Shown piece by piece: positions 54,104 through 56,099 of a stretch of DNA of 64,000 nucleotides. Under the pieces are notes generated by a model, which was not told the DNA's origin, made no database searches, and saw nothing but the letters and a program-made list of their open reading frames with translations. The DNA is taken from NCBI GenBank assembly GCA_947305005.1, contig CAMZCM010000002.1, positions 124,001 to 188,000 on the forward strand, read 5' to 3'. A program made the translations under genes and the position numbers. Numbering within the stretch: the stretch's first letter is position 1; each line of letters begins with the position of its first letter. Origin of the DNA: an uncultured Prevotellaceae bacterium. Lineage in GTDB: Bacteria > Bacteroidota > Bacteroidia > Bacteroidales > Bacteroidaceae.

Positions 54104-55129
54104 TTAGAATCGGAAGCCGTAGCTGAGGCGAAGCCGCCATTTCGTATGCGAAAGCCGCAAGTCCTGCGAGGAGCCGCGGACAGTATGATAGACCACATAG
54201 GTCAGGTTGGCGAAATGCCGGTCATTGAAGTAGTGCAGAAAGGCTACGCGTCCAGTCAGAATTAGTTCTGGGAACACATGAGAGAGTTTCAGTTCTTCTG
54301 ATTCTGTCTCCAAACGATTAGCGGAGGCCACCACTACAGTCGGGAGCGCTGAGGCATGAATGAGCCAACTGTGCGGAAGCACCCAGTTGTAACCATAGCC
54401 GCCACCAATGCCCAAGTCGGCCAAGTGCATCGTAAATGCTGGATTGCCCAAGTCGGTCGAAGACTGCGCTTTCAGTTGGCCGCCCATGAGCGACAATGCC
54501 AGCATCCAGCAACCGGCGCTCCTGCGTTGGATATAGCTCTGCGTCAAAGCTGCAGGATATGAAAAACGACGATAGTTGAAGGCATAGTAAGCACTGACGT
54601 TCAGTAAACGTGTCTGCACAATGTCCGATGGAAATTCATGTTGTGTGCCGCCAATGTCTGTCCAGCCAGAATACTCTTTGCTGTCCATATATGCGACCTC
54701 CACGCCATAGCGATTCGTATATGCAGTTACATTCAGTTCTGTGTTGTGATTCTTTCCGGAAAGCTTATCGGGGTTCACGCCGATTGATGCAGACAAGCCA
54801 CGGTACGAGATTCCAAAGCTGGTGGAGATGCTGTTGGGCGTCCGCAGATGGTTATTGAATGGTTTGCCGTCTCGTTGTCCTTTTGTGTCTATAGTATTGC
54901 CAGAAACATTCATTCTGGCTTTCACCGTAAATGAATATTGGGGACGCGTCAGATACATTGTATCATAGCTTCCTGTCTGCTGATAGCGGTCGGCCAACGC
55001 TTTGTCTATCGCCAGAATACGTTCTGCACGAGTACTATCTAACGGCAGCCGTTCCACAACGCGCTCGATTTGCGCTTGTGCCACGACCGCCGATACAAAG
55101 TACGACAAAGTCAATATACGACGAAGCAT
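54104..55129 (-). CDS. DUF4421-like outer-membrane protein
   Basis: Met at 55129 (MLRRILTLSYFVSAVVAQ) gives a signal peptide; beta-barrel text ending LRLSYGFRF. Confidence 0.65.
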   Translation of the reverse strand: MLRRILTLSYFVSAVVAQAQIERVVERLPLDSTRAERILAIDKALADRYQQTGSYDTMYLTRPQYSFTVKARMNVSGNTIDTKGQRDGKPFNNHLRTPNSISTSFGISYRGLSASIGVNPDKLSGKNHNTELNVTAYTNRYGVEVAYMDSKEYSGWTDIGGTQHEFPSDIVQTRLLNVSAYYAFNYRRFSYPAALTQSYIQRRSAGCWMLALSLMGGQLKAQSSTDLGNPAFTMHLADLGIGGGYGYNWVLPHSWLIHASALPTVVVASANRLETESEELKLSHVFPELILTGRVAFLHYFNDRHFANLTYVVYHTVRGSSQDLRLSHTKWRLRLSYGFRF

Positions 55130-55139
55130 CCGTTTGTGA

Positions 55140-55820
55140 CTATTGAAGAACAAACATCTGGCCATTCCAGTGCATAGTGATGGGATGCAGGATGTCTTTC
55201 AGCGCTTTCTTCTCTTCGGTATCGAGATAACCAGTCTGCAGGGAGAGGGTCAGGGTGGCGTCCTGCGGAGAGAGTTGCAGGCAGACAGGACGGAAAGATT
55301 TCAGGGAAGCCTGTGCCAGTTCCACCGCAGTGCGTATGCTGTCAGCTATCTCTTTTACATAGAACTCATCGCCTTCGCGCACTTGCTTGACAGATGCCAC
55401 AGAAAAGGGGCTGTCTGCAGGCAGTGACGACCAGTCGGCATTGAGCAAGCGGATATTCGAATCCTTTACATGGCGCGATGTATCCTTCTCACCTGCTTCG
55501 GCTGTTGTTACCATACATAAAACGGCGGTGCTATCGCTTGTTGGCAAAAGCTTCAGTTCCATCACAGCGACAGTGCTGGTGCGGAAACGGGCATAGTCAG
55601 AGGTCAGTGCCTCCAACGTGACATGCTCATTTGCTTTGTTGCGCACTCGCGCCTCCATGTTATTCTCAATGTAGTCAATGCAATCCAGACGATTGTTCTT
55701 CGTTACCAACGGCAGCACGGTATCGGGCATCGCTGCAAAAACATCACGCATCAGCGGTTGTGCTGTGCTGTCGAGAACAACAAATGATATGTAGCAAATA
55801 GTCAATAACAGACGTTTCAT
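55140..55820 (-). CDS. DUF3256-like secreted protein
   Basis: 226 aa; signal peptide; VFAAMPDTVLPLVTKNNRLDCIDYIENNMEA. Confidence 0.75.
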   Translation of the reverse strand: MKRLLLTICYISFVVLDSTAQPLMRDVFAAMPDTVLPLVTKNNRLDCIDYIENNMEARVRNKANEHVTLEALTSDYARFRTSTVAVMELKLLPTSDSTAVLCMVTTAEAGEKDTSRHVKDSNIRLLNADWSSLPADSPFSVASVKQVREGDEFYVKEIADSIRTAVELAQASLKSFRPVCLQLSPQDATLTLSLQTGYLDTEEKKALKDILHPITMHWNGQMFVLQ

Positions 55821-55878
55821 GGGCTCTTGTCAATAATTTGCGGCAAAAGTACACATAAAACATCGAACACCCAAAACT

Positions 55879-56073
55879 TTTGGACGTCAATCCTACTGAA
55901 TTGTTATAATGACGTCAATCTCCGTCAATCTTGAACGTCAATCGGCTTTAATGCATATATGATATCTGCCGTATGTATAATAGGATTTATAAAGATTGAC
56001 GATAAGATTTCCGAAGATTGACGTCCAAACTAACATGTTTAGACGTTAACAATCGACAATCTTATCGTCAATT
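55879..56073. repeat. Cluster of CGTCAATC octamers in both orientations
   Basis: Forward at 55885, 55913, 55923, 55936; reverse (GATTGACG) at 55994, 56016; near-match at 56066. Confidence 0.93.
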
Positions 56074-56099
56074 TTCTTTTTTTTGTTCGTCTGTTTCGC

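Follow-up and report, generated by a model that had tools for sequence, protein, structure and literature searches.

The 64-kb stretch of DNA analyzed here (the window) raises the question of why all of its exact copies of one octamer, CGTCAATC, lie together in a single non-coding gap. This gap (55821–56099, 279 bp) extends from the start of a DUF3256 gene (minus strand) to the end of an outer-membrane-like gene (minus strand). It holds all six exact octamers, on the plus strand at 55885, 55913, 55923 and 55936 and on the minus strand at 55994 and 56016, together with a near match, CGTCAATT, at 56066; the remainder of the window has none. These are the four forward and two reverse octamers and the single near match that an earlier note had described, and the inverted repeats that it superimposed on them are also present: the 14-bp repeat 55879–55892/56016–56029 is perfect, and the 55994/56058 pair belongs to a longer inverted repeat (55992–56030/56037–56075, 39 nt, 79% complementary). 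The array lies upstream of a DUF3256/DUF4421 gene pair, as the note had it, and Pfam matches confirm both genes. The DUF4421-DUF3256 pair (54104–55820) has the opposite orientation to that in relatives, where the order is truA-EamA-DUF3256-DUF4421, and the octamer array is at one of the two breakpoints of the inversion.

Chance clustering or local low-complexity sequence would be compatible with the number of octamers, which is ordinary (shuffled sequences have about 3 per 64 kb), but not with their clustering; the likelihood of six random points falling inside 139 bp is extremely small (p about 3e-13). Related pieces of the gap were found by BLAST at about ten other places in the same genome (2.45 Mb, 40 contigs), and the pattern CGTCAATC-N(0–40)-CGTCAATC occurs 24 times genome-wide, at about 10 separate places, vs. 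0 for a reversed-pattern control. Given these pairs, the observation withstands the test that the earlier note had named as fatal to it, equal density of the octamer in random intergenic DNA of this genome. Paired-unit matches number 28 in this genome and 19–53 in each of five relatives (control, 0). These genome-wide and cross-species copies refute chance or low complexity, the probability of which we take to be negligible.

Read side by side, the loci of this genome and its relatives have a single shared architecture. The consensus (about 95 bp) is GATTGACG-N4-GATTGACG-N2-GATTGACGTC, followed by an interior of about 35 bp and then the inverted arm; each arm thus has three GATTGACG units, spaced 12 and then 10 bp toward the interior, with the innermost ending in GATTGACGTC. 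Among 46 tabulated copies, the spacing of the innermost unit is 10 bp in 85 of 92 arms and that of the second unit 12 bp in 69 of 79, in a table that accepted any spacing of 9–14 bp and only near-exact units, so that unit conservation is partly built in; interiors are mostly 33–38 bp. Octamers and spacing are constant and linkers variable, with GTAG or GGAG seen in just some of the latter. A degenerate fourth unit is found outside the arms at -10 to -3, making each arm approximate two 22-bp direct repeats. While the arms are inverted, the outer ends of the element are not sharp, fading through this degenerate unit into AT-rich sequence. At loci in genomes G042 and G048 (e.g., L083, L084, L256, L265), arms have expanded, the longest having about ten units, and elements are arrayed in tandem with a period of roughly 121 or 164 bp; several of these expansions are near contig ends, and copy numbers from draft genomes may therefore be underestimated.

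The feature in the window is one complete and one truncated copy of this dispersed palindromic repeat. The complete copy (55994–56073, 3+3 units) scores 57.0 bits (E 5e-11) on the plus strand and 55.9 bits on the minus strand with the covariance model (R1). Its left arm (55994–56023, plus strand) has GATTGACG at 55994, the decayed unit GATTTCCG at 56006 and GATTGACG at 56016, with spacings of 12 and 10 bp and thus the geometry of the tabulated copies. The 20-bp interior, TCCAAACTAACATGTTTAGA (56024–56043), is short for the family. The right arm (56044–56073, minus strand), recognized from the sequence and the covariance model, is decayed and reads on the plus strand as CGTTAACA at 56044, CGACAATC at 56054 and CGTCAATT at 56066 (spacing 10 and 12). 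The neighboring copy (55879–55943), delimited by octamer positions and inverted repeats, is truncated or rearranged, with a lone unit at 55885–55892 and a right arm of CGTCAATC at 55913, 55923 and 55936 (spacing 10 and 13); it has no intact left arm, and the covariance model did not score a complete element there.

Across 73 genomes of one rumen Bacteroidales genus, the covariance model has matches in 10, in a search that counted most copies on both strands: there are about 7 copies in this genome, 13 in G003, 23 in G048, 8 each in G042 and G055, 6 in G016, single copies in three further genomes and one weak match in G038, with none in the other genomes of the 73. When about 85,000 species genomes were scanned for the core pattern, it was recovered from rumen or gut Bacteroidales assemblies of the same kind, plus about eleven single matches elsewhere that look like chance. 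No copies were found in viral, phage and plasmid collections (including IMG/VR), and copies showed no association with tRNAs. On a DUF3256 protein tree, from which G042 is absent (no DUF3256 match), all placed carriers fall within one 13-row subclade, intermixed with non-carriers, and clustering of the carrier label on the tree is not significant (107 of 500 shuffles gave a value as low). The family is restricted to one genus and mostly to one subclade, with a patchy distribution, as seen in genomes that are nearly all incomplete metagenome assemblies, with several copies near contig ends and gene contexts taken from mechanical ORF calls. As far as we found in a full-text search of the open literature, which returned only analogues (REPINs, CGTC REPs and BrickBuilt), the family is undescribed.

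Comparisons between species, with no within-species insertion observed, indicate that the family inserts, since copies reside on both sides of luxS and in the altronate operon at points where the gaps are short in relatives of identical gene order. Most relatives compared retain the order MTAN-luxS-symporter and lack an element there, and only in this genome is luxS flanked by an element at both ends. Between uxaB and uxaA (the altronate operon), where the gap in G055 is 3 bp, a copy is present in this genome, its first unit overlapping the stop codon of uxaB; G055 itself reads GATTGACG at the junction, and this first unit may thus be derived from the host. No target-site duplication was detected, the flanks of 44 copies being no more alike than shuffled flanks (p = 0.46 within 12 bp). 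Tandem arrays of copies occur in several species, and decay is apparent from covariance-model scores that range from 106 to 30 bits. Some sites are common to several species (GH2-GH20 and OGL in G003 and G042; prfA and pyrF in three or more), indicating that part of the family, comprising many copies, is old; some of these old shared copies could be kept for a function. Two genes, A and B, are duplicated in tandem at locus L047 (1736–6877), giving A-B-A-B; elements or arms follow both B1 and B2 and also separate A2 from B2. Roughly the first 120 residues of the two B genes are almost identical, suggesting recent gene conversion.

We read the feature, with good though not full confidence, as a full and a partial copy of a dispersed intergenic palindrome that is a small, non-autonomous, REPIN/MITE-like mobile element. 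Three readings had been offered in the earlier note, and the mobile palindromic repeat among them is borne out by dispersed copies of one architecture, relatives with short gaps at the same sites, decay and tandem amplification. The multi-site regulator array survives in part. It would have a transcription factor or nucleoid protein bind phased octamers upstream of genes, with the copies forming a regulon, and the units and their helical spacing, the most constant part of the element, do resemble phased protein-binding sites; moreover, many copies are 14–65 bp upstream of a start codon, and the prfA, pyrF and OGL sites recur between species. However, the flanking genes look unrelated (DUF3256, luxS, altronate dehydratase, prfA, pyrF, GH20), with no common function evident among those identified, and the copies are lineage-specific and decayed, including those in the window. 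Copies between co-oriented genes (33/40) also equal the window background (37/40), and the bias of copy position with respect to gene direction is no greater than background. A regulon of this type seems unlikely to us, and a local regulator array is less likely than a mobile REPIN/MITE-like element.

The remaining reading of the note, a structured RNA or transcript element (terminator, attenuator or stability hairpin) selected for its fold, fared poorly, and we consider it very unlikely. Folds predicted for the two strands are very stable as RNA (z -4.8 and -6.8) and as DNA (z -6.8 to -9.0), and copies amid closely spaced, co-oriented genes, such as luxS, would be transcribed. Yet the inverted octamers alone suffice for palindromy, no Rfam family matches above its gathering score (sub-threshold matches are to unrelated families), and the sole terminator-like site of the region falls outside the full element. 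Long linkers match between arms in 5 of 7 copies of this genome (p 0.005) but in just 2 of 22 copies of other species (p 0.43); an initial covariation test was limited to 13 copies in which the spacing is exactly 10/12, and it was the wider test that set this genome apart from the rest. Pairing between the arms is thus not preserved from one species to another, a point against a conserved structured RNA, and the linker match in this genome can be a consequence of descent from a few symmetric sources.

No transposase or other mobilizer was found for the family. An all-against-all comparison of ORFs neighboring the copies revealed no recurrent transposase, and an autonomous parent element with a transposase and the same ends was not seen among ORFs around fetched loci and unpaired arms, in a search that covered individual regions around copies. 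That the copies are REPINs mobilized by a RAYT (Y1/HUH) transposase is suggested by their overall layout, two inverted short repeats with a spacer in intergenic DNA (PMC3116915), but is highly improbable: Y1_Tnp is convincing in just 2 of the 17 genomes searched (the drafts leave some doubt), none was found in G016, which is 92% complete and has about 6 copies, and the sole convincing Y1_Tnp among carriers searched, in G055, has no flanking octamers. A RAYT/Y1 partner was rejected for most carriers, in which Y1_Tnp is absent or unlinked, as was the PF01797 match in this genome, which is weak and has no convincing ORF. At L220, the G055 Y1 transposase is flanked on both sides by GCCAGCCAATTCATTGGCTGG-type palindromes, possibly its own repeat family.

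GxxExxY (PF13366) was also rejected as a partner: the carrier G003 lacks it, it is common among non-carriers, and only in RGIG10016 do copies flank it. The two GxxExxY genes of RGIG10016 (L116, 6780–7720; L128, 1430–2260) each lie exactly between two copies, beside DUF4153 and pyrF, and in the related G048 a single element, with no GxxExxY gene, accompanies DUF4153 and pyrF. A second hairpin family, CTTGAAGNGTCAAGCG...CCGAGCG, mostly 32–38 bp (up to 70), sits precisely at the GATT/GACG center of single octamers in 14 of 15 sampled cases, for which the search demanded GACG and not GATT (L087, L088, L092, L104, L105, L114, L130, L136, L260, L261, L266 and other loci). It also occurs inside other repeats (e.g., GAAAGTT tandems) and in 18 of the 73 genomes of the genus, with no target duplication apparent by eye at its insertions. 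Based on the RGIG10016 genes between copies and the hairpins at octamer centers, the phased arrays might serve as recognition platforms where a recombinase inserts genes or elements, much as in an integron or at a landing pad but with no known enzyme; we regard this as speculative and quite improbable.

For the REPIN/MITE-like mobile element, the constancy of units and spacing, with linkers that are unmatched outside this genome, leads us to read the octamers as putative protein-binding sites and not as a stem kept by pairing. A protein supplied in trans would most likely recognize the octamers, phased over two helical turns (10 + 12 = 22 bp), and move or copy the element into intergenic DNA, where inserted copies would later decay or expand in tandem. 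Insertion is presumably enzymatic, and individual copies probably have no fixed regulatory role. If this reading holds, small intergenic mobile palindromes gain a family that is made of phased direct octamers and apparently lacks the transposase by which comparable REPIN elements are moved, and the question of what moves palindromic repeats that have no transposase would become testable in a defined rumen clade that includes both carriers and non-carriers.

REPINs are REP doublets that form hairpins and are found with RAYTs (Bertels and Rainey 2011, PMC3116915). The family resembles them in having a short inverted pair with a spacer and in being intergenic and dispersed with a genome-specific copy number. 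In contrast, REPIN arms are imperfect palindromes with GTAG, whereas the arms here are direct repeats of GATTGACG at 10/12 bp and not short imperfect palindromes tagged GTAG or GGAG; REPINs also reach hundreds of copies vs. up to tens here, and no RAYT gene flanked by the repeat was found in carriers (with some doubt, as the genomes are drafts). CGTC-tagged REPs, single 8–9 bp stem-loops with one terminal CGTC tag and a CCA-like tail (Di Nocera et al. 2013, PMC3733652), share with the family the CGTC, the intergenic location, the inverted pairs, reports of a lack of a dedicated transposase and reported occurrence in Bacteroidetes; here, however, CGTC is within every octamer, three times per arm, and a single arm does not fold into a stem. 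BrickBuilt, a MITE of Porphyromonas gingivalis, has 12-bp terminal repeats like IS5-family ends and some target duplications (PMC4596501), neither of which was found in the family (44 copies for target-site duplication). The family thus lacks, as far as testable, defining features of REPINs, CGTC REPs and classical MITEs. BrickBuilt is nevertheless similar in being intergenic, with about 19 copies per genome, sites conserved between strains, number-variable internal tandem repeats and long predicted stem-loops, and by analogy the family would work most like a REPIN or MITE.
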